From positions 744,001 through 808,000 of the forward strand of contig OX639973.1 of assembly GCA_951828385.1 (NCBI GenBank): a DNA stretch of 64,000 bases, written 5' to 3'. Source of the stretch: an uncultured Poribacteria bacterium (GTDB taxonomy: Bacteria; Poribacteria; WGA-4E; WGA-3G). The position numbers and the translations under genes were made by a program. This document shows, piece after piece, positions 45,777 through 59,360 of the stretch (its first letter is position 1; each line of letters opens with the position of its first letter). A model generated the notes under the pieces. That model did no database searches, had not been told where the DNA came from, and saw nothing but the letters and a program-made list of their open reading frames with translations.

Positions 45777-46985
45777 TTATTCAGAGAGTTGGCAGGTGCC
45801 ATTAATTTCAAAAATATAGGGTTCAACGTTTGTAAACCGTTGGTGTCGCCGTCCTTTAAACTTGACTTCTACTTGATTAGAATTCAGAAGTTTCAAATTA
45901 AATTGAAGTATCTCCTCAACTGCGTTTGAAAGTTTCAGTTGGAGCACTGATGTTAAACGAGCAAATTTCTCAAATCGCTCTCCTGTTTGTCCAACAGAAC
46001 GGTATACAGATGGAATGGGTGAGGCAGAAATTTGAAATCCGTTCCGTCCACGAACAAACATTTCCAACGTGGCTTCATTGAATAGACCCGCGGGCCCTGT
46101 TCGGTTCTGGAAATCTGGTGGGAGTTCGCCTAATTTCTCGTCAAGCAGGATACGCCTTGCGCGCATTTCAGCCATCTTGTCCGGTGAAAGACTGCCAAAT
46201 GTCATTTCGCCAAGGGGATTCGCATTCTGTCTGTGTCTCTCTTCTTTCAAAACAACTTTCCAGACGATCTGAGAATCGGATGCGGTTTCTACAATTTCCT
46301 GGGGTTTTACCCACGCGGCATCTTCTCTGAGTGCTAGGGCAATATGAGCACCCCTTGCAAATGCATCGTTGATATGCCTTCTTAATGTGCGGAGAAAAGC
46401 GGTTTCTTCGGGAGATTCTGGAAGCAGTTCAAGTGAAATTTCTGTTGAATCCCAACGCGCATTTTGAACTGGAATGAAATACGACTTTCCATCTTCAGAA
46501 ACTAACAAGACATATTCGGTTGTGTCTGTCTCAACGACACTGGAAGCCGTTCTATCCGTTGCAGCGGTTTTTGGTATTGTGCCCGATAACTTCATTACTA
46601 AGGCTTCATAAACTTCTTCAATCGTTATTGAACGTAAATCCAGATATCCGACTGTGGGAGGAATGCCCGGAATTTCTGTATCATCAAGACGAACTGGCAA
46701 AATGTACTCACGGTTTTCCTTAAATGCCCTCGCCTGAGCCATCTGGCGTTCATGGTTTGTCCATAACTTTTGTTCGTAGTATTTAGACAAGAACATCACA
46801 CAATAGCGCGCTCGGTCTTTGTAAACCGATGATAAGTAGTCATAGAGATTCTTGCCCCACAGCTGCGCTAACTCATTTTCATCGTAAAAACACCAATATC
46901 CACCCGCTTTAAGAAGGTCTGCTAATGCCTTAGCGTGTTGTCGATCTTCGCCAGCAAATGACAGTGCGACATCATATTTTTGCAT
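45777..46985 (-). CDS. TIR-domain protein with unknown C-terminal domain
   Basis: 402 residues from the ATG at 46985, behind AGAGGTG. Residues 1-130 form a TIR domain: YDVALSFAGEDRQHAKALAD, a BB-loop-like YDENELAQLWGKNLYDYL and FLSKYYEQKLWTNHERQMAQ, where Glu79 is the expected NAD-hydrolysis residue. Residues ~165-402 are an unrecognised, mainly soluble domain (TEYVLLVSEDGKSYFIPVQN ... EVKFKGRRHQRFTNVEPYIF). TIR proteins of this layout are typical immune effectors that deplete NAD when the attached domain senses infection. That role is inference; the FRG-TPR remnant downstream supports a defence context. Confidence 0.85.
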   Translation of the reverse strand: MQKYDVALSFAGEDRQHAKALADLLKAGGYWCFYDENELAQLWGKNLYDYLSSVYKDRARYCVMFLSKYYEQKLWTNHERQMAQARAFKENREYILPVRLDDTEIPGIPPTVGYLDLRSITIEEVYEALVMKLSGTIPKTAATDRTASSVVETDTTEYVLLVSEDGKSYFIPVQNARWDSTEISLELLPESPEETAFLRTLRRHINDAFARGAHIALALREDAAWVKPQEIVETASDSQIVWKVVLKEERHRQNANPLGEMTFGSLSPDKMAEMRARRILLDEKLGELPPDFQNRTGPAGLFNEATLEMFVRGRNGFQISASPIPSVYRSVGQTGERFEKFARLTSVLQLKLSNAVEEILQFNLKLLNSNQVEVKFKGRRHQRFTNVEPYIFEINGTCQLSE

Positions 46986-47026
46986 TTTTGGCACCTCTTA
47001 AATCCTTGCAAACTGGGTTCCCACAC

Positions 47027-47187
47027 AATCCGCGATTCAGACACTTTATTCTATTCTTCACTCCTACAATGTGCTTCTCCTACATGTTAAATCATATCAT
47101 GTTCGCGCTCGCTTGTCAATTTCAATTTTGCGGGACTGCCTGAATCGCGAATTGTCGCGGATGACACAGATTTCGCGGATGATACAG
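47027..47187. repeat. Two composite repeat fragments between the TIR and PIN genes
   Basis: An inverted copy AATCCGCGATTCAGAC (47027-47042) upstream of the TIR gene and a direct copy from TGAATCGCGAATT (47141) to GCGGATGATACAGG (47187) just past the PIN stop. Confidence 0.75.
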
Positions 47188-47198
47188 GTGCTGTTCTG

Positions 47199-47789
47199 TT
47201 AAGGTAAGTGGCTTCCACCGCCGGTTTGCGACCAGAAATCTTCGGCAGCCTGCTGATGGTTTTGATGCAACCAGTGATGAATTTGCCTAAGGATGCGTGG
47301 CAACCCTTTTTGCGGCAAGTTTTCTGCTTCCCAACTCGCCATCTGCCTCCGTAGAGAAACATCAATTGGGTTTTCAACCGCAATATCTACTTGATGGCAG
47401 GCTTGTATTAGTTTACGGTCATCTGTTGCAAGGATGTTAGCATTACGAGTGCGCGCTGCTTGCACCAAAATTGCATCAGTGATGTCGATTTCTAAGGTGT
47501 CGGCAATCTGCATCGCAGCGAGGGTTATCGGCAAATCTACTCCAACAATCTCAATAGGTCCTGCGGAAAATTGGGAAAGTTGTTGTGAGGTAAGGTTGAC
47601 ATCTACAGCATAAACCTTTGTGAGAATCGCCTTTGCTTCAAGCAGCGTAAGCGTCGTTGTGAACCAATTTGTGTGGTCTCGGATAAACGATTCACACGCG
47701 GCAGATGCGGGATGGTCGTCAAGCAAGGAGTAGACAATCAGCATCGCGTCTAACCCACGGGACACGAATTGATCAGAAGATAAGGTCAT
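47199..47789 (-). CDS. PIN-domain toxin (VapC-like)
   Basis: 196 residues from the ATG at 47789 (GAGGTG upstream). Acidic PIN residues are visible: Asp in SRGLDAMLIVYSLLDDH, Glu in TTTLTLLEAKAILTKVYAVD, Asp in LEIDITDAILVQAARTRNAN and the final ILATDDRKL. The ~60-residue extension after the PIN core (DVSLRRQMASWEAENLPQKG ...) is unusual and may bind the target or antitoxin. PIN toxins are Mg-dependent RNases. It overlaps the antitoxin gene by 17 bases. Confidence 0.88.
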   Translation of the reverse strand: MTLSSDQFVSRGLDAMLIVYSLLDDHPASAACESFIRDHTNWFTTTLTLLEAKAILTKVYAVDVNLTSQQLSQFSAGPIEIVGVDLPITLAAMQIADTLEIDITDAILVQAARTRNANILATDDRKLIQACHQVDIAVENPIDVSLRRQMASWEAENLPQKGLPRILRQIHHWLHQNHQQAAEDFWSQTGGGSHLP

Positions 47790-48000
47790 CACCGCTCACC
47801 TCGGACAAGTCTAATGCCGCAGGATTCCCCATTTTGAGTTTCTCGGCGTAAACCTCATCCCATGTCTGTGCAAGGGATGGCCGGATTAGGATGCCATCGT
47901 CTGTCCTTTCAAGCACGACACCCGATTCTAACCCCAATTCTTTTACCCAGTCAAGGGGCAATTTGATTTTATAATCAGTTTCCAACGATAGCGTTTTCAT
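47773..48000 (-). CDS. AbrB/MazE-type antitoxin
   Basis: 75 residues from the ATG at 48000 (GAGGTGG with good spacing). The swapped-hairpin DNA-binding fold is seen in KTLSLETDYKIKLPLDWVKE-LGLESGVVLERTDDGILIRP; the acidic tail (LKMGNPAALDLSEVSGDDLI) should block the PIN toxin. It precedes and overlaps the toxin gene, the usual order. Confidence 0.87.
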   Translation of the reverse strand: MKTLSLETDYKIKLPLDWVKELGLESGVVLERTDDGILIRPSLAQTWDEVYAEKLKMGNPAALDLSEVSGDDLIF

Positions 48001-48119
48001 GGTATCCACCTCTTCCTACAAATAGTTGAGAAAAGTATACCACAACTCGTGGCGGTTATCAACGGTTTTAGTGGGAAATTTCTAATTGGCGGGGTTAAAG
48101 GTTGGTGTTTTCTTATGAT

Positions 48120-48711: not shown

Positions 48712-49407
48712 CTATAGTGACCACCACCAAGTTGAGCGATAAATTGTCATACGATTCATATCGTGCCATGTGAACGCTTCCCATATAGACCTTCCATCGT
48801 TTGAATATTTAACTGATTCATCCATATCGCTGTATACCGATGAAGTTACTCCTGAAGGATAATTAGGTGAAAGTGAACATAGTTTGGCTGCATAGTTCGC
48901 TGCACGTCCAACCCAGACGAGGTCATTTGATTTTCGTATACCAGTGCGTGCGATAAATAATTTGCTGGTGTCAATTCCTACAACCTGTCTAACGCTGTAA
49001 TTTGCCTTAGGGTAACATTCTTTTAGTATAGGGTTGATAATATGAGTAACTGCGTAATTTATTTTTAATGCAGAACGAGCGGCGGAGGTATTTTTTGAGT
49101 CACCAATATACACCGCCATGATACGATCACCGTCGTAAGAAGTTATAACACCGCCCTCAGACCGTATGACTTTAGCAGCACAACTGAGATATGCTTTATA
49201 TATTTCAGCCGCGAATTCTGGTTTGTAGCGATCAACAAGGTTTGTAGAGTCATCAAGGTCGGCATATAACACCGTTCCATCTAACTCTACGGCATCATTA
49301 CCCAATCCTAGATCTTCCGGTTCTGGGACTTTTCTCCCTTTCTGCGTAGTCCATGTTTCCCGAAATATTTTCCGAACTTCTTTCGCAAAGTCTTCACCTA
49401 AACTCAT
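48712..49407 (-). CDS. pycC: Pycsar-type pyrimidine cyclase (class III nucleotidyl cyclase fold)
   Basis: 231 residues, RBS GGAGG. A lone cyclase domain: metal-binding Asp50 in TVLYADLDDSTNLVDRYKPE, then SEGGVITSYDGDRIMAVYIG with Asp92/Asp94, and later LVWVGRAANYAAKLCSLSPN. The size, the opening D-L-D-D-S-T and the partner gene match PycC, which makes cCMP or cUMP on phage infection to switch on an effector. The base preference cannot be read safely from sequence. The effector gene stops 24 bases upstream, in the same direction, so both share a transcript. Confidence 0.85.
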   Translation of the reverse strand: MSLGEDFAKEVRKIFRETWTTQKGRKVPEPEDLGLGNDAVELDGTVLYADLDDSTNLVDRYKPEFAAEIYKAYLSCAAKVIRSEGGVITSYDGDRIMAVYIGDSKNTSAARSALKINYAVTHIINPILKECYPKANYSVRQVVGIDTSKLFIARTGIRKSNDLVWVGRAANYAAKLCSLSPNYPSGVTSSVYSDMDESVKYSNDGRSIWEAFTWHDMNRMTIYRSTWWWSL

Positions 49408-49431
49408 TAGAATAATCCTCCTTATATGAAA

Positions 49432-50346
49432 TTACTTAACGCCCACCTTGTTAATGATATGCCGAAGTTGATTGCAAACTGTTGCCAGCAATGCGGCAAG
49501 GTCATTAGAATCACCTGATTGATACTTTAGGGGAATCAGGCCGAGCAAATCAGTGGGAATCTTAATCTCAGACTCGTAAGGAATAACCATAAAGGTACGT
49601 TCGTGTGATAATGCCCCCATAAATAGTCCCAACTCAAAAATTACGTTATCACGAGGGGCATCAGATATTTCGTCACGACTTTCTACTACATCGTCAGGTC
49701 CAAGTACCAACACCGCGAAGTCGGATTCTCGAACCTGTCTTTCAAGTTCGGTTAAAATAAATTGCGATGCCCCAAAAACGCCATCTGTCCATAATTTGAC
49801 GATTAAATCCTTATTCTCCAAATTAGATTTAATTGCTTCTGCAATAGGAAGTGATTCTTTTGAGGAGCCTATAAACATCACAGGACGTGGATTTGTAGCA
49901 GCAACCAATCTATTTCTTTGCCGTAACCTATCGGCCAATTCTACTGCGATTAGTTGCCAGATTCTTGGATATTTTTCTGCTAATGAACGGAAGAAGGTTT
50001 CACTAATTTTCGCAATAACCGTTTGCTCAATAGCGATAACTGATGCTGAACGTCTTGCGGATGGATCAATTAACACCATTTCACCAACATGTTGTCCAGA
50101 ATTTCTGATTGCTACTTCCCGCCCATTAACAACGATAGAAAGTCGTCCCGCTAGAATAAAATAGATGTCGTTGTCCGCGCCATCCTGAATTATTAGCTCC
50201 TCGCCAGACTCAAACTGGAGAAGTTCAGCTTGGTCAGCCAGTTCGTTAGATAAAGTTTCGTTGTCGTGAAGAATAGGTTGTTTACGTAACGCCCAAATAA
50301 GCCGATTACGACTTGCTTCTCCACGAAATCTGTTAATCATTTCCAT
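49432..50346 (-). CDS. pycTIR: Pycsar effector: cyclic nucleotide-binding domain fused to TIR
   Basis: 304 residues. Residues ~27-145 are a cyclic nucleotide-binding domain: FESGEELIIQDGADNDIYFI and the phosphate-binding cassette HVGEMVLIDPSARRSASVIA. Residues ~153-300 are a TIR-like domain of the CAP12/PF10137 type: RPVMFIGSSKESLPIAEAIK, DFAVLVLGPDDVVESRDEIS and DNVIFELGLFMGALSHERTF, with Glu238 the likely catalytic NADase residue. In Pycsar the cyclase product binds the first domain and unleashes NAD loss. Two starts six bases apart are possible. Confidence 0.88.
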   Translation of the reverse strand: MEMINRFRGEASRNRLIWALRKQPILHDNETLSNELADQAELLQFESGEELIIQDGADNDIYFILAGRLSIVVNGREVAIRNSGQHVGEMVLIDPSARRSASVIAIEQTVIAKISETFFRSLAEKYPRIWQLIAVELADRLRQRNRLVAATNPRPVMFIGSSKESLPIAEAIKSNLENKDLIVKLWTDGVFGASQFILTELERQVRESDFAVLVLGPDDVVESRDEISDAPRDNVIFELGLFMGALSHERTFMVIPYESEIKIPTDLLGLIPLKYQSGDSNDLAALLATVCNQLRHIINKVGVK

Positions 50347-51388: not shown

Positions 51389-54300
51389 TCAGACACTCCC
51401 CTCCACAATCGCAATCTCATCTTCCGTTAAATTATACAAGGCATACACCAGTTTATCAATTTCATCTTCAAGGTTGGAAGTGTCTGCTTCGGGGTCGGTG
51501 TGTTTAGTGTCAAGGATTTCGTCAACTTGCATTTCAATCTGTTCGACAATGGGTTGGTTTGCTTCTGTGATAGGTGGGACGAGAAGCGGTTCTAATGCTT
51601 GCACGCTTACAATCAAGTCTCCAGTTCCTGTTTTCGGAGCGAGACCAAACAATTGATAGTGAGAAACACGAGAATTTAACACAGCAGTCAGAAACTTAAC
51701 CTTTTTACCTGTAGCAATACATGTGCTGTCAAGACAATACATTGGATGTTGAATATATGCGAAACGCAATATTGAACCTATCCGTTTCCATACTATCTTC
51801 TCTTTATCAAATTCTGAGTAGTAAGCACAAGCTCTGAGATTCCACCAATTTTCACCTTGATCGTCCCTATGGAAAACTCCTTTACCTCTCACTTTTATTT
51901 CCCCCAATTCTATCTGTTCCGCTATAGTCTCAAGGTGCGCATAGATAGCAGGATACCTTTTTGGGATATTGAGATCATAATTAGTTGCTAATAAATAAGA
52001 TTTCACTGATTGGGCATGATAGCGTTCAATATCACGTCCGCGCAGGAGTGGTTTGATGATTTCTGCTGATTTTGGGTCTTGCTTTATAAGTTGCTCGCGT
52101 TTTGCTTCGTCTATGATGAATGCTTCATTACAGCCTGTGATAATTCCACGATAGATGTTTATATCCCAATCTTTAAGCGGTTTACCGACATCCTCTATTT
52201 TGCGTTTCAAGTCCAGTTCGGCAGATGAGAGTATCGCCCACGGTTCACCTTTAGCGGGCATCTCCATCGTTGCGCCATTATTCATCAGATATTGGGCAAT
52301 GTTACTGGTTTGTTTGTCAAAGTCTGTTCCGATAGATACGGCTCTAAAGTCGGTAGAATCATCAACAATAGTATTTTGAAAAAGCAAGATGTTTGTGTCC
52401 ACAGTAGCATCAAACACGTCTGGTCCCATATCCAGCAGTTGAATCGGTTGGGTAAGGGTTCCGAAGTAATCCCTCAACTTTTTACCGTAGCCAGCACGCA
52501 TCCATTTATTAGAAGTGATAAAACAGACATATCCGTTACTTTTCAAAAGTTGATTCGCTTTTTCATAGAACAAACAGTAAACATCACCGGTGCGGATGAA
52601 GGTTTTAAATCCTACGTTTTGATAAAGATTTCCAAGTCTACCACCTTCCTTTTGCAATTGAATATATGGCGGATTGCCAATCACTATATCAAACCCTTCT
52701 GTGATGCCGAACATCCATTCTGAGTCGAACCAATCGGCGGTGGCGTTTTGGTCGTACGGGTCCCATCGGGCAATCCTTTCAGCGTCATCTGCGGGCATGC
52801 CGAAACGCTTTAGTTCGGTTGCTAATTCTGATCGCAATTTTTCGTCTTTTTGCTTGCAGGCACGTTTGCGTTGGCGGGTGGTGGCGTGGAAATGTTGCTC
52901 GCGGTTGTCGCGCAGTGCTTGTTCTAAGTCTTGTGCGGTGTTGCTCGTCAATGTGCCTTGTGCCTTGAGACCGATCAGTGTGTTTGCTGCGATGAAGCGC
53001 GTCTCCAAGTTTGGGAGCGGTTTGATACCGAAATTCTCTGCGTTTTGTTCCGATTCTTGCTCAATTGCGAGGGAGATAAAAAAGCGGAGTTTGGCGATTT
53101 GGCACGCGACAGGTTGGATGTCTACACCGAAGATGCTGTTTTGGATCAGGTATAACTTCCGTCCGAAATCTGAATCTCGGTAGCGTTTGAAGGTTTCGTC
53201 AATTTCAACGAGTTCTTCACGGCGTGCCTCGTCATCCTGTGTATCAAAAGCGACTTCTGCGCGTTGGATCGCGCGTTCCTTCTGTAATTGTTCCCATCGG
53301 CTGTTATCTGGATCAAGTCGGCGGAGTGCGAGCGTCAGTTTGTGGAGCATCCCCATCGGGAACGCGCCAGAACCGACAGCGGGATCCAGTATCTTGAGTT
53401 CAGAAATTGCTCGGACGATGCCATCTGTCTCGGTATCATCAAACCATTCGTTGGCATCGTCAAAGGCTTGGGCATAGTCGAGGAGATAATGTAAGCGTTC
53501 ATCCCAGAGTTCTGTGTCGCCGTCGGTTGGGTTGCATTTTTGGGATAGCGTGGCGACTAACGCTTCTTCCACCATATAGTCCACAATTGGACGTGGGGTG
53601 TAGTAGGAGCCTGTCTGTTTGCGTACCGTTGCGCCGGTTTCGGGGTTGTAGGCGGCGAGTAGGTTTTCAAACACTCTGCCGAGCAGTTCGGGGTCCAGCG
53701 CAACTTCTTGCTCTATCGGTGTGTTCTCCTCAACGGTGAATTTGTAATGCTCAAGTAGCGGGATCAAGCCTTGCTGTGCATCAAAAAAGAGGCGGTTTGG
53801 GATGGATAATTTCTTATACTGATTATCAGAAAAACAGTCTATGCGGTAACTCTCTTCACCCGTCGCTTCCCAGCTATCCAGACAATCGAACAATCCGCCG
53901 TTGATGAACGGGGTTTCGCCGAACATTTCCAATAGTTTATCGGGGTCGTGCATCTGATTCTTATAGCGGTAGCGTGAGAAATCGCGATGTGTGGTGTAGC
54001 CAACGGTGCTGAACTTTCGTTTGTCTATTTCGGTGTTTAGTGTGGCGAAGAAGAGGTTTTGTAGCACGGCGCGGTAATAGGCATCGCCGTTATGAAAGTC
54101 ATCCTCTTTGAGTAGGTCTTGGATTTGTGCTTTGCTGAACAGTGCCTCGGTGATCAATCCCTTTTCCTTGATAAACCAGATAAAGAGCAGGCGTGTGATG
54201 AGGCGTATGACATGCTCCGCCGGTTTTAAGATGCGGTTTTCGTCTGTGGGGAATGTTGCGACCTCTATTGCCCATTCATACCATGCGAACAGTTTTCGGT

Positions 54301-54982
54301 AGAACTGCTTGTTGAGTGCTTCGGTATCCAGTTTGGCGAGCCATGCTGATAGTAGTCCGTCGAAGTTTTTCGGTTCATTATTGGCATCCATCCAATCCGC
54401 GCATGCCTCCAGTGAGAGTTCGGACAGGATGTCGAGATGTGCGCGATGCGGGTTGTTGAGACGGATGTCTTTGATGAGGGTGACTTGCCCGAGCACATCG
54501 CGGTCCTCGTCAGTTTTGTCTGGACGGCGATCGGCGAAAGCAACCGTCAAACGATCGCCCGCGCGGAATAAGATCACAGTGGGTGCGAACAGACGTTTGT
54601 TGATTTCTCGTGTGAACTCGGCGTATTTGGTGCGTGAGTAGGTGTTATCTTTTAGTTCAACTGCACAGAACAGGAAACTTTTTATGTTTCCTTTGTCGAA
54701 ACCGTCTGCCTCGAAGAGTCTTTGCTGAATATCATCCGTGATTTCATCGCTTGTGAACTGGAAAATGAGTTTCACGGATTCGGCGTGTTTGCGGAATTCC
54801 TGTTCGGTTTTGGTGTTCGGGTTGAGCGGTGGGAATTCTTGAAAAAAGTCGTGGACGGTGCCGGAGAGTTCAAGTGTGCGTTCGCTGTGGTAGCCTATCG
54901 TTGCCAAGAGGTTTTTCGATTTTTCTAAGAAATTATCGGTGGGGATTGCTGATAGTGCGGATTTGATTGTTTCTTTCTTCAT
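51389..54982 (-). CDS. Eco57I-type adenine DNA methylase / type IIG-like restriction-modification protein
   Basis: 1197 residues. SAM motif I is ISELKILDPAVGSGAFPMGM (residues ~528-547); catalytic motif IV is NPPY in FDIVIGNPPYIQLQKEGG (~768), so it makes N6-methyladenine. An N-terminal stretch with FCAVELKDNTYSRTKYAEF (E-L-K at ~107) could be a PD-(D/E)XK nuclease site, as in type IIG enzymes, but this is weak. The C-terminal third resembles a TaqI-like specificity domain (GSILRFAYIQHPMYCLDSTC). The stop codon lies inside a composite repeat word. HigBA and a PLD-SNF2 helicase lie upstream in the same direction and probably form one system. Confidence 0.88.
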   Translation of the reverse strand: MKKETIKSALSAIPTDNFLEKSKNLLATIGYHSERTLELSGTVHDFFQEFPPLNPNTKTEQEFRKHAESVKLIFQFTSDEITDDIQQRLFEADGFDKGNIKSFLFCAVELKDNTYSRTKYAEFTREINKRLFAPTVILFRAGDRLTVAFADRRPDKTDEDRDVLGQVTLIKDIRLNNPHRAHLDILSELSLEACADWMDANNEPKNFDGLLSAWLAKLDTEALNKQFYRKLFAWYEWAIEVATFPTDENRILKPAEHVIRLITRLLFIWFIKEKGLITEALFSKAQIQDLLKEDDFHNGDAYYRAVLQNLFFATLNTEIDKRKFSTVGYTTHRDFSRYRYKNQMHDPDKLLEMFGETPFINGGLFDCLDSWEATGEESYRIDCFSDNQYKKLSIPNRLFFDAQQGLIPLLEHYKFTVEENTPIEQEVALDPELLGRVFENLLAAYNPETGATVRKQTGSYYTPRPIVDYMVEEALVATLSQKCNPTDGDTELWDERLHYLLDYAQAFDDANEWFDDTETDGIVRAISELKILDPAVGSGAFPMGMLHKLTLALRRLDPDNSRWEQLQKERAIQRAEVAFDTQDDEARREELVEIDETFKRYRDSDFGRKLYLIQNSIFGVDIQPVACQIAKLRFFISLAIEQESEQNAENFGIKPLPNLETRFIAANTLIGLKAQGTLTSNTAQDLEQALRDNREQHFHATTRQRKRACKQKDEKLRSELATELKRFGMPADDAERIARWDPYDQNATADWFDSEWMFGITEGFDIVIGNPPYIQLQKEGGRLGNLYQNVGFKTFIRTGDVYCLFYEKANQLLKSNGYVCFITSNKWMRAGYGKKLRDYFGTLTQPIQLLDMGPDVFDATVDTNILLFQNTIVDDSTDFRAVSIGTDFDKQTSNIAQYLMNNGATMEMPAKGEPWAILSSAELDLKRKIEDVGKPLKDWDINIYRGIITGCNEAFIIDEAKREQLIKQDPKSAEIIKPLLRGRDIERYHAQSVKSYLLATNYDLNIPKRYPAIYAHLETIAEQIELGEIKVRGKGVFHRDDQGENWWNLRACAYYSEFDKEKIVWKRIGSILRFAYIQHPMYCLDSTCIATGKKVKFLTAVLNSRVSHYQLFGLAPKTGTGDLIVSVQALEPLLVPPITEANQPIVEQIEMQVDEILDTKHTDPEADTSNLEDEIDKLVYALYNLTEDEIAIVEGSV

Positions 54983-55083
54983 GTTTTATCTGATTTCTTT
55001 TTTGAAACCTACACAACCCAACTATGAAAATAGATGATTCATAAGGTGTCGGAGTCGGTGATGTTTATTCATCCTATTTGTAG

Positions 55084-55497
55084 TTACCCTTCCTCTGTTG
55101 AAATGTGGTGTTCATCAAGTTTGGAATTGGCGGTTGCTAACTTTAGTGCGGCTCCTGAAGAATCTTCAGTAGTATCTTCAAGATGTAGATTTGTAGTTGA
55201 TAGTAGTGCCGATAGTTGACATCCAAGCGCGTTAAGAACGGTCCTGAGCGTGTCAATTTTTGGTGTTTTGGTACTATCTAACACTTCCGGTAGGAGATGT
55301 GGTTCAATGTCTATTTTCTTGGCGAGTTCAGCACTTCCGCCTTGTGCTTCAACGACATACTGAAGTGCCAACTGAATTGTGGCGAGATTCCCGTGGATCT
55401 GATATTCTTCTATAACAGCATCGAGAAAACCTCCCACACTTTCTTCTTCAGCGAGTTGTTCAACGAGGAAAGCATGCCATGTTCCGTAAATTTTCAT
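55084..55497 (-). CDS. higA: HigA-like antitoxin
   Basis: 137 residues from the ATG at 55497. The helix-turn-helix region is GGSAELAKKIDIEPHLLPEV-LDSTKTPKIDTLRTVL; the preceding part (FLDAVIEEYQIHGNLATIQL) is the helical lead seen in antidotes of the putative addiction module family. The C-terminal ~35 residues are acidic and probably disordered. It overlaps the toxin by four bases (ATGA), so translation is coupled. It binds the toxin and likely the operator. Confidence 0.85.
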   Translation of the reverse strand: MKIYGTWHAFLVEQLAEEESVGGFLDAVIEEYQIHGNLATIQLALQYVVEAQGGSAELAKKIDIEPHLLPEVLDSTKTPKIDTLRTVLNALGCQLSALLSTTNLHLEDTTEDSSGAALKLATANSKLDEHHISTEEG

Positions 55498-55835
55498 CGT
55501 TTGTGCCTCTCTTTGTATTCTTTCCAATAATTTTTTGCGCGTTCAATATCCCGTCTCTGTGAGGATTTATCGCCTCCACAGAGGAGCAGAACAACTGTGT
55601 TATCTACTTCACCATAATAGATACGATAGCCTGGCCCGAAGTCAAGTCGTAGTTCCCAAACCCCATCACCGAAGGATTTTCGGTCTCCAAGGTTGCCGGT
55701 TTCAATAGCAATAAGTCGTGCCTGAATCCGTCGTCGCATGCTTGTGTCCCGAACTGAACGGAACCATCTTGTAAAAGGTTCGTGACCGTTTGGAATCTGG
55801 TAAAAATTTATTGTCCGCGGGCGCACATCACGCAT
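55494..55835 (-). CDS. higB: HigB/RelE-type (Gp49-like) toxin
   Basis: 113 residues. RelE-fold pattern of the addiction-module killer group: NGHEPFTRWFRSVRDTSMRR-RIQARLIAIETGNLGDRKSF, then GVWELRLDFGPGYRIYYGEV and the strand VVLLLCGGDKSSQRRDIERA ending in YWKEYKERHK. A ribosome-dependent or free mRNA endonuclease. It lies between the helicase and methylase, with a MITE-like element just upstream. Confidence 0.9.
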   Translation of the reverse strand: MRDVRPRTINFYQIPNGHEPFTRWFRSVRDTSMRRRIQARLIAIETGNLGDRKSFGDGVWELRLDFGPGYRIYYGEVDNTVVLLLCGGDKSSQRRDIERAKNYWKEYKERHKR

Positions 55836-55884
55836 TGACGATCTTTCGTTTGTGAGTAAGTGACAAGTGACTACAAAATTAAAC

Positions 55885-56011
55885 TATAGTAAAACCTATA
55901 GTTAATTGGGCACTCTCAAACAGTCTGAATACCTATAACAGGCATTCAGACTGGCACAAACTAACAGTTTATGCTACAAAGATGTCCACTTATTTATTGG
56001 ATTCCCTATAA
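55885..56011. repeat. MITE-like element, copy 2
   Basis: Ends TATAGTAAAA (55885) and ATTCCCTATA (56001-56010). Hairpin arms CAGTCTGAAT (55921-55930) and ATTCAGACTG (55944-55953) are identical to copy 1, including the 13-base loop. It sits between the helicase and higB. Confidence 0.8.
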
Positions 56012-56063
56012 TCAAGATCTGTACAAAACTTTGAAATATGATACCATGCGTCATTATAAAAAG

Positions 56064-59000
56064 TCAAGATTGTTGGTTTGTGATAATCAACCATGTTACC
56101 AATTTGAAATCGCCAGTGTCTTTAGGTGCTTTGGATGTTGGTGTCAATTTTGCCTCGCGAGGACTTCCACTCTTCAAGAGTTGGCTCTGTGTCTTGGTAT
56201 GCGACCGTGTGATATGCGAAATGACGGTGTCCAAAAGTTTGTTGTAATGTGTCATGTTATCACCGTATTCCGTCTCTTGGTCGAACCAGAGACACAGATC
56301 ATCTATGGCGTTCTCCTTGCCAACGGTAGATGCTTCAAATAGGTCTAACACCTGTTTCGCGTTGGGACATCCGTAACGGATGTCCCCACTGTTTCGGATA
56401 TAAACGGCATAGTACGGATGGATGGGACTGGCGGTTTTTTGCAGTTTCTCTGTGCTTGCGTTTGTTTGTTGAAGAAAGAAGATGACACCGTTTTCCGTTG
56501 GGTTGTTTTCGTTGTCGGTAACGGCATAAGCACCATCAGGTGTTGCCTCAAGTTTCGCTCTGTTTCTTTCGAGATACTTCAGGAGCTGGGCGAAGAAATA
56601 ATCTAACGTAAAGTCGCTCATTACCACACTGTCCGAGAGGTCATCTAAATCAATCACCTCTTCACGGAGCCGTTCTAACTGCTGATCCCGGAAGTTGAGT
56701 TCCATCTGTGCTTGTTCATAAGCCGATTCATTCAATGGGTCGTCATCACCGCTTGCGGTAGCGTCAGCGAGTGCCATGCGGGATTCAACGCGATTTCGTA
56801 AACGGAGATAGACCTCCATATCGTCTGTGGGCCAGTAGTTAATCATCTTCACCGTTTTATTTTTAGTACCGATGCGGTCAATCCGTCCGAACCGTTGAAT
56901 GATACGGACGGGATTCCAATGTATATCGTAGTTTAGGACTGTATCGCAATCCTGAAGATTTTGCCCCTCTGAGATACAGTCTGTGGCAATGAGCAGATCA
57001 ATGTTGTCGCTTGTTTCCTGAGTACGTATCCGTCCCCATGGTGCGAAGTTTGTGAGAATAGCGTTGAAATTATTTTGTCCGCAAGTGGTTCGAGTTATAT
57101 CTCCCGAAACCATCGCCATCTCCAGTCCTAATTCCGATATGAGTTCAGATAAGTTTTCATAGAGATATTCTGCTGTATCCTTGAAGGTTGTGAAGATGAG
57201 CAACTTGCGATTCGGGTTTCCGTCCCTATCTTCTGTAGGGTTTAGCACCTTGTCTCGAATGTGCTTTTTAATCTGTTTCAGTTTTCCATCTCTTTCTGGT
57301 GTGATGGATTGCACTTTTTTCAACGCATCGGTTAAGGTCTGTTTATCTTGGATGATGTCCTGTTTCCAGCGGTTGCAATCCAATTCCTTTAGATGATAGG
57401 GATTTCTGGCACGATTGATTAGAAATTCCTCATCGTCTTCATCGTCATCGGGGAGGATATCTGCTGCGTCCGCTATATTGCTGTTTTTCCGAAAGCGTTC
57501 AATCTTCTCCAGCATTACATCGTGTTTGTTGATGGTGCGTTCAAGTGTTTTGGAGAGGGAGTCAGCAGAACTTTCCAACCGTTTGAGGAAGTTGGTCTGC
57601 ATCATGCCGATAAGGAATTTCTCACGGTCTGCCTGATTAAAACGGAGTCGCTTTCTCTCATCAGCCAACCGCTGTTTTGCTGTTTCGTCTATAACATAAC
57701 TGGAGGGTCTATAGATGGATAGTTCAAAATCGCCTATCTGATCTGCTAACGCTTTATATGACAGTTCACCTGACAGGTCGGTAGGTGGATGACAATTGAC
57801 GGGATCCAGTTGTGTGGGGAATTCACCAATTTTTTCTATTTCTTCGGCATAGTATTTTATGATATGCCTTCGGGAACGCGCGATAGAAACGCCGCCGAGC
57901 AGTTGGAAAAATTCTGCGCCTAAAGTATCAAATAATTCTGTTTTATCTCTTGTGCCGCCTTTCGTTGCATTTTCTTCCCACGCTTTGAAGGCTTTTTGCG
58001 CCTGTCGTATTAAATTGCCGATATTGCTAACCCCTAAACTGTTTCTAAAGACATCCTCGCGTTTTTCAGTCATGAGATATATCTGATTGCGGAGGTCGGT
58101 GAGCGAGGTATTCACCGGTGTCGCGGAAAGCATCAGTACTTTGGTTTTTGTGCCTTCTTTGATGACCTCCTCTAATAGGCGGGAGTAACGACTGTGGCGG
58201 AAGTTGCCATCTTTGTCCTCACGGGGTTTGCTGTCGTTTCGGAAGTTGTGGGATTCGTCAATAACAATCAGGTCAAAATTCTGCCAGTTGAAATTACTGA
58301 GATCAATGTCCCCAGATTTACCTGTATAACGAGAAAGGTCGGTGTGTGATAGTAAGGTGTATCCAAATTTATCATCGAGGAACTCATTGGATATTTGATT
58401 ATGAATGGCTTGATAGCGTGCCCAATTGTCGCGGAGTTTTTTGGGGCAAAGAACAAGGACGCGTTCGTTTCGCAATTCAAAGAATTTTATCACCGCGAGT
58501 GCGGTGTATGTTTTGCCTAACCCGACACTGTCTGCTAAAATACAACCGTTGTGTCGCAACAACCGAGCAATAACACTTTTTGTCCCCTCTTTTTGGAAGT
58601 CGTATAACTTGTTCCAGATTTTTGTGTCGTATAGATGTATATCCTCAAGAGTTTGTTCGTCTGTTTTTCGGGTTTCAATTTCTTCACGGAAAAGTTCGTA
58701 CAGGGTTTTGTAGTAGATGAGTTCTGGTGGGTGATCTTGTCCGATCTGCTTGAGTTTTGCGAGTACTTTATTTTTCACGTCTTCAACGAGCTCATCGTTA
58801 TTCCAGAGTTCGTCAAACCACGCCTTGAGGTCAGTTCGGTCGCGGTCGCTATCCACCTCAAGATTAAGTTCAATGTTACTGTTATTTGAGCTGAGTCCGA
58901 GTCCGCGTACCGTAAAGTTGGAGCTGCCGAGAATTGCTTTGTCAACGCCGTTGTTGGCAATATGGTACATTTTCCCGTGTATCAGATTTGAGCCGCGGGT

Positions 59001-59360
59001 TGTGCGGATTTCTACCTTCTCTTTTATCCATTCGGCACAGGCTTTGGCAATCGGTTTCTGTCGCAGTTGCTGGTTGAGTGCTAAACCTGTGTCCGTTATG
59101 TCAAACGCTTTTTTATCTGTGTTATTTGGGTCCATACGTTTGACAAAATCGGGGTCACCGAAAAGAAAACGAAGTTCCTCTATTTCGTTGAGGGCGTGTT
59201 GCATCTTTTCGTATGCATAGATAGTGAAGTAGGCGGATACGATGGAGAGTGCGGAGCCGTTTTTAATTTCTTGTTGTAGAAAATCGTGAACTGTTTCACG
59301 CAGGAGGTTATCTCGGATGCTGGATTTTAGGGATGCGTTTTTATGCAAGATATTTTCCAA
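56064..59360 (-). CDS. SNF2-family helicase with N-terminal phospholipase D-like nuclease domain
   Basis: 1098 residues. Residues ~25-190 are a PLD-like domain with half an HKD motif, H128-G-K130 in LIHGKMYHIANNGVDKAILG, then SSNFTVRG. The SF2/SNF2 helicase follows: Walker A SVGLGKTYTALAVI (~277), DESH in DLIVIDESHNFRND (~368), motif III LSATPVNTS, and the C-terminal lobe ending VRIIQRFGRIDRIGTKNKTV (~820). The start is a TTG at 59360; a perfect promoter leaves a leader of only ~14 bases and no better start exists nearby. It pairs with the Eco57I-type methylase downstream, the usual makeup of a helicase-nuclease plus methylase defence system. Confidence 0.87.
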   Translation of the reverse strand: MENILHKNASLKSSIRDNLLRETVHDFLQQEIKNGSALSIVSAYFTIYAYEKMQHALNEIEELRFLFGDPDFVKRMDPNNTDKKAFDITDTGLALNQQLRQKPIAKACAEWIKEKVEIRTTRGSNLIHGKMYHIANNGVDKAILGSSNFTVRGLGLSSNNSNIELNLEVDSDRDRTDLKAWFDELWNNDELVEDVKNKVLAKLKQIGQDHPPELIYYKTLYELFREEIETRKTDEQTLEDIHLYDTKIWNKLYDFQKEGTKSVIARLLRHNGCILADSVGLGKTYTALAVIKFFELRNERVLVLCPKKLRDNWARYQAIHNQISNEFLDDKFGYTLLSHTDLSRYTGKSGDIDLSNFNWQNFDLIVIDESHNFRNDSKPREDKDGNFRHSRYSRLLEEVIKEGTKTKVLMLSATPVNTSLTDLRNQIYLMTEKREDVFRNSLGVSNIGNLIRQAQKAFKAWEENATKGGTRDKTELFDTLGAEFFQLLGGVSIARSRRHIIKYYAEEIEKIGEFPTQLDPVNCHPPTDLSGELSYKALADQIGDFELSIYRPSSYVIDETAKQRLADERKRLRFNQADREKFLIGMMQTNFLKRLESSADSLSKTLERTINKHDVMLEKIERFRKNSNIADAADILPDDDEDDEEFLINRARNPYHLKELDCNRWKQDIIQDKQTLTDALKKVQSITPERDGKLKQIKKHIRDKVLNPTEDRDGNPNRKLLIFTTFKDTAEYLYENLSELISELGLEMAMVSGDITRTTCGQNNFNAILTNFAPWGRIRTQETSDNIDLLIATDCISEGQNLQDCDTVLNYDIHWNPVRIIQRFGRIDRIGTKNKTVKMINYWPTDDMEVYLRLRNRVESRMALADATASGDDDPLNESAYEQAQMELNFRDQQLERLREEVIDLDDLSDSVVMSDFTLDYFFAQLLKYLERNRAKLEATPDGAYAVTDNENNPTENGVIFFLQQTNASTEKLQKTASPIHPYYAVYIRNSGDIRYGCPNAKQVLDLFEASTVGKENAIDDLCLWFDQETEYGDNMTHYNKLLDTVISHITRSHTKTQSQLLKSGSPREAKLTPTSKAPKDTGDFKLVTWLIITNQQS

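Follow-up and report, generated by a model that had tools for sequence, protein, structure and literature searches.

A restriction-modification operon was proposed in 2018 for orf33/orf34 of the Lactococcus FM03P plasmid pLd8, in which a PLD-SNF2 helicase, suggested to be the cutter, is encoded beside a Type IIG-like methylase with pfam12950 and without a nuclease domain of its own, and whose likeness to Class I DISARM was remarked upon (PMC6098607). The locus analysed here, from an uncultured member of the Poribacteria, is homologous to that operon, and systems of this kind are therefore already known; its sequence is distant, however, and the DUF4391 link, the family-wide survey and the toxin-antitoxin (TA) slot reported below are not described for pLd8 (PMC6098607). 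A locus with the same architecture, from a Lactococcus plasmid, is also present in our own collection (L063; helicase 27-30% identical). The breadth of the family, the DUF4391 link and the pattern of HKD loss are absent from the open-licence papers that we searched.

Several other systems are partly similar. BREX-related Type-2 (DUF499) systems also combine an HKD-Swi2/Snf2 helicase with an N6-methylase and have been proposed to act as restriction-modification, but a DUF499 ATPase and DUF3780 belong to them (PMC12839542), whereas inspection of the ORFs around our pair and of its recurrent neighbours showed none recognisable as either. DISARM comprises the functions of a PLD nuclease, an SNF2-like helicase and an adenine methylase, and the PADLOC profiles DrmD and DrmMI match in part, the former to our helicase domains and the latter at the locus; DrmA and DrmB are nevertheless absent here, and the PLD nuclease is fused to the helicase instead of forming a separate DrmC. 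The Type ISP enzymes LlaGI and LlaBIII share the logic of motor, nuclease and methylase, and their methylase part, including the target recognition domain (TRD), superposes on ours, but they are single chains with an Mrr nuclease (PMC4666363), while here there are two chains and an HKD nuclease. Precedents for restriction by a PLD-family nuclease driven by an SF2 ATPase are SauUSI (PMC7913695) and CglI/NgoAVII (PMC5737866); unlike our system, SauUSI targets modified DNA and has no methylase (PMC7913695), and in CglI the PLD nuclease and the motor reside on separate chains (PMC5737866).

Organization of the locus

The window (the whole 64-kb stretch of DNA that was analysed) corresponds to positions 744,001-808,000 of a single 6.66-Mb contig, and the named relatives of its proteins belong to Candidatus Poribacteria. 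The minus strand was confirmed to carry all four ORFs reported in the initial annotation, at the positions given there or close to them, and the TA pair indeed lies between the two large genes, all in one direction. Along that strand the order is HKD-SNF2 helicase, HigB-like toxin, HigA-like antitoxin and gamma-class N6-adenine methylase, with the following features:

56064..59360 (-): HKD(PLD)-SNF2 helicase, 1098 aa (Pfam, PADLOC, AF2 model), predicted restriction (R-like) subunit with nuclease and DNA motor
58917..58979 (-): HKD nuclease motif HGKMYHIANNGVDKAILGSSN, helicase residues 128-148, with invariant residues in 33 relatives
55494..55835 (-): HigB/RelE-family toxin (TIGR02683), accessory cargo
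55084..55497 (-): HigA-like antitoxin (weak TIGR02684 match), accessory cargo
51389..54982 (-): fusion of DUF4391-like domain, gamma N6-adenine methylase and TRD, 1197 aa (Eco57I, TaqI_C), predicted modification and specificity subunit
54332..54982 (-): DUF4391-like domain, methylase residues 1-217 (profile matches), possible helicase-docking domain
51653..52282 (-): TaqI-like TRD, methylase residues about 901-1110 (TaqI_C)

The methylase gene is followed on its 3' side by a small ORF and then by a Pycsar pair (PycTIR effector and PycC cyclase, 48712-50346, minus strand, assigned by PADLOC) directly downstream of the system, and because of this pair the surroundings can be regarded as a defence neighbourhood. 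A TIR-domain protein (Pfam) and an apparent PIN/AbrB TA pair are encoded at 45777-48009, also on the minus strand. A scan for promoters and terminators yielded no more candidates than were obtained from shuffled sequences.

Domains of the helicase and the methylase

The interpretation of the first gene as a helicase with an N-terminal PLD-like nuclease is borne out by Pfam matches to PLDc_2 (E 6e-9), RE_NgoFVII PLD (1e-5), SNF2/ResIII and Helicase_C, and by PADLOC, in which the top match is the candidate family C3a139 'HKD+Snf2' (E 8e-108, residues 45-1058, nearly the whole length of the profile). The PLD part possesses a single HKD motif, which makes its earlier description as a "half-site" a fair one. 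An alignment of 33 helicases shows no variation at H128, K130, GSSN 145-148 or E164, nor at the Walker A and DExH residues or the motif VI arginines. Among the full-length helicases linked to gamma-methylases, 59 of 60 retain the HKD motif. Pfam detected no recognition domain for modified bases in the helicase. In the AF2 model (mean pLDDT 81.5) residues 226-922 align to SNF2 motors, including ZorD of Zorya; whole-model structure searches barely covered residues 1-225 of the helicase and 1-217 of the methylase.

The large N6-adenine methylase is of the Eco57I type, as had been proposed: matches to Eco57I (3e-35) and TaqI_C reveal the architecture of a Type IIG methylase with a TRD, and PADLOC assigns the protein to REase_MTase_IIG. 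Its motif I (DPAVGSG) and NPPY motif are intact, motif I and NPP being invariant in 37 methylases. Residues 220-1190 of the AF2 model (mean pLDDT 82.5) align to BrxX/PglX, LlaBIII, LlaGI, DrdV, MmeI and CamA, with a Z-score of 26.8 for BrxX/PglX and of 25.0 for the methylase-TRD part of LlaGI/LlaBIII. The TRD is only 19-27% identical to those of the related loci L010 and L144, although the catalytic core is 79-85% identical; such an abrupt change between close relatives is the pattern to be expected of exchanged specificity, which is typical of restriction-modification. Compared with the window copy, the second methylase of the genome (L046:3657-7412) has 94% identity in residues 901-980 and 36% in residues 1-200; it looks mosaic, which suggests recombination between copies.

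Conservation of the helicase-methylase pair

Within the phylum, homologs of the helicase are present in 56 and those of the methylase in 63 of 85 genomes, and the joined coordinates place the methylase, on long enough contigs and with few exceptions, downstream of the helicase on the same strand. The gap between them is mostly 17-50 bp in one sister clade and ranges from 28 bp to 2 kb in the clade of the window. Four diverged helicase-methylase pairs occur in the host genome alone; the third and fourth are no more than distant relatives.

A further, independent scan, for which the methylase was the only seed, covered 84,980 species genomes and retrieved 80 loci from at least 15 phyla, six of which end at a contig edge, leaving 74 that could be evaluated. 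An HKD-SNF2 helicase was found at 72 of these 74 loci, on the same strand in 71 cases and directly upstream on that strand in 68; the gap in the latter group is at most 100 bp at 40 loci and more than 300 bp at 25. Since the 6.66-Mb genome has about a dozen SNF2-type matches, repeated same-strand adjacency by chance is, by an informal estimate, negligible. The helicase and the methylase form a conserved operon across at least 15 bacterial phyla, and the conserved adjacency that the initial annotation had named as its check is indeed observed. What began as a local oddity would thus be one member of a widespread two-gene restriction-modification family, whose two genes are treated separately by annotation pipelines, one as an unnamed helicase and the other as a "Type IIG" enzyme.

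The DUF4391-like domain and the relatives linked to Type III systems

The initial annotation had noted neither that the N-terminus of the methylase is DUF4391-like nor that there is a connection with Type III systems. Pfam DUF4391 matches 22 of 23 methylase N-termini weakly (best 5.8e-6, window 0.0028). A profile of stand-alone DUF4391 (seven proteins), compared with the 2,033 ORFs of the collected loci, ranked DUF4391 itself first and, without interruption after it, 37 methylases matched at the N-terminus; a protein of another kind followed only at E 0.42. Profile-profile comparison of stand-alone DUF4391 with the methylase N-termini gave a P-value of 7e-6 and, over 140 columns, a probability of 84%; two controls reached 0.2% and 1.5%. 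Pfam DUF4391 produced 31 matches across the 85 whole genomes of the phylum, every one either within the N-terminal portion of these methylases or immediately ahead of the portion that had been matched; 14 control genomes gave zero matches. Single matches are weak, but jointly they make a strong sequence-based case that the methylase N-terminus is DUF4391-like. At the profile level the N-termini of Bacteroidota-type methylases do not resemble DUF4391 (hhalign probability 0.2%), and the adaptor role discussed below is therefore confined to the window-type clade. That the N-terminus of the methylase is a nuclease in its own right is considered unlikely, since no conserved D/E-x-K triad exists across 37 relatives and a profile search of this domain against the PDB sequences returned no matches.

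In plasmid relatives a stand-alone DUF4391 gene is located directly after a gene of the same helicase family (37-39% identical). These were found on plasmids of Acinetobacter, E. coli, lactic acid bacteria, Raoultella, Methylotuvimicrobium and a methanogen, and the DUF4391 gene nearly always precedes genes for a Type III-like methyltransferase (Mod) and a DEAD/DEAH helicase (Res); the Res tested has an endonuclease domain of its own. Such operons share with our locus the helicase family and the adaptor-type domain, but differ in that DUF4391 is a separate gene, the partners are Type III Mod and a nuclease-bearing Res, and the HKD motif has been lost, in 12 of 12 Type III-linked helicases, so that it is kept only beside gamma-methylases. 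The seven of these 12 that were included in the tree form one clade nested among the other helicases, with support 100.

Helicase and DUF4391 look like a constant module, with the methylase as the exchangeable part, and the reading that we offer for the HKD nuclease is a single loss where Res supplies the cutting. Tentatively, and at somewhat less than even odds, we regard HKD-SNF2 and DUF4391 as a portable motor-adaptor module mounted on exchangeable methylases, with DUF4391 as the docking domain: with a gamma-methylase the module would provide both translocation and cutting, and with Type III Mod/Res it would have lost the nuclease once and kept the motor, giving rise to a two-motor system. 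DUF4391 thereby gains a testable role, and the retention of HKD beside gamma-methylases and its loss beside Type III Res offer a natural experiment from which to learn under what conditions a restriction motor requires a nuclease of its own.

HigBA and the intergenic slot

The HigB-like toxin (55835-55494) matches TIGR02683 with E 3e-35. The antitoxin has a weak match, below the cutoff, to the HI1420 family (TIGR02684, E 1e-6), and it probably starts with the ATG at 55497, which overlaps the stop codon of the toxin. Analysis of the gaps of 23 relatives revealed both HigB and HigA in three (in addition to the window), HigA without a matching HigB in six, and neither in the rest; in the clade of the window the slot may hold HigBA, HigA alone, another small ORF or nothing. 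In other phyla the long gaps often contain one variable accessory gene, e.g. for a YhcG/DUF1016 nuclease, RhuM, Schlafen-AlbA_2, Bro-N or a Y1 transposase. YhcG, RhuM, AlbA_2, Bro-N and TA genes are also carried as cargo by Type I restriction operons, a likeness that favours restriction-modification for the pair. Because the content of the slot varies among relatives, HigBA is best read as cargo, and on account of its patchy presence we do not count it among the core parts.

The median dN/dS of HigA is about 0.38 without a matching HigB and 0.29 with it (few loci), and to judge from these values HigA without a matching HigB is still under purifying selection. Intact HigA without a matching HigB occurs in the gap regions of L017, L018, L019, L021, L029 and L032, where it is perhaps a solitary regulator.

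Proposed mechanism and alternative explanations

Motor, nuclease, methylase and recognition domain are encoded together with intact motifs, a gene complement like that of Type I, Type III and Type ISP systems. We consider it likely, with a probability of roughly two in three, that the locus encodes a two-gene, ATP-dependent restriction-modification system that would serve in phage defence. The methylase would read its DNA site through the TaqI-like TRD, methylate adenine and so mark the host DNA, and the HKD-SNF2 protein would associate with it, probably through the DUF4391-like N-terminal domain. An unmodified site would switch on the SNF2 motor, leading to translocation along the DNA and cutting by the HKD nuclease, which is probably dimeric because each chain has one half-site. 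HigBA would be a passenger in the insertion slot between both genes.

Two counterpoints to a two-gene system are that two Poribacteria loci (L094 and L096) carry a related methylase alone, from which it follows that the methylase can stand without the helicase, and that the N-terminal domain lies at the position of the nuclease in Type IIG enzymes such as DrdV and MmeI. Together with the REase_MTase_IIG assignment by PADLOC, the latter would suit an ordinary Type IIG enzyme cutting with its own N-terminal domain, beside a helicase that is a separate defence protein; this is quite unlikely, as the domain is DUF4391-like and has no conserved D/E-x-K triad in the 37 relatives, and the helicase is almost always present, in operon. 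SauUSI shares the PLD-motor core (PMC7913695), and the helicase-nuclease might by analogy be a Type IV-like enzyme acting on modified foreign DNA, with the methylase employed otherwise, e.g. in regulation, but the helicase has no modified-base recognition domain by Pfam and the methylase contributes a TRD and is inherited together with the helicase, which renders this explanation very improbable.

A BREX- or DISARM-like block of phage without cutting at sites, with the other parts supplied from elsewhere in the genome, is unlikely. It would agree with the similarity of the methylase fold to BrxX/PglX, with the partial DrmD match and with the PglZ domains of this genome, but the HKD site, invariant and so widely kept, points to a nuclease that is needed, and no recurrent BREX or DISARM core gene lies beside the pair. 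The only DrmB-type (MZB, DUF1998/MZB) domain of the genome is at 2,558,799, about 1.75 Mb from the window; PglZ domains are at 4.63 and 6.35 Mb, with a weak one at 0.60 Mb, and none in or near the window; and the NCBIfam PglX models give the methylase 74 of 500 bits, far below the cutoff. The locus thus has neither DrmA with DrmB, as in DISARM, nor PglZ, BrxC and PglX together, as in BREX. The absence of these core genes had been noted from the start; the possibility, raised at the same time, that relatives would reveal the pair as a fragment of a full DISARM or BREX locus was ruled out by the distance of the MZB and PglZ domains and the lack of any such recurrent neighbour. Of the original proposal of a minimal two-protein restriction system guarded by an addiction module, the helicase-nuclease and methylase part is supported, while the guard is not, given its patchiness in the 23 gaps. 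That HigBA is nonetheless functional, stabilising the locus or killing the cell when the restriction system is disabled, would fit the position of the pair within the operon, seen in the window and in several congeners, and the purifying selection on HigA; we find it improbable, given that the pair is absent from most relatives, that six keep HigA without a matching HigB, and that unrelated genes fill the same slot in other phyla. The two-gene restriction-modification system remains our preferred interpretation.

Variants of the locus

Related methylases without a helicase are located in Poribacteria at L094:9269-13066, L096:9278-13066 and G000:4116656-4120306, and are possibly orphan or regulatory. 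No RecF-like ATPase follows the methylase at the window locus; in 11 others (L083, L084, L085, L092, L108, L114, L117, L122, L140, L141 and L145) a RecF/SMC-like ATPase of about 550 aa is encoded directly after the methylase, one of them matching PADLOC mad3 weakly, and these may represent a three-gene variant. In the third pair of the host genome an extra ORF (L047:10099-10893) is inserted between helicase and methylase; by eye it resembles the methylase N-terminal domain, of which it is possibly a free-standing second copy.
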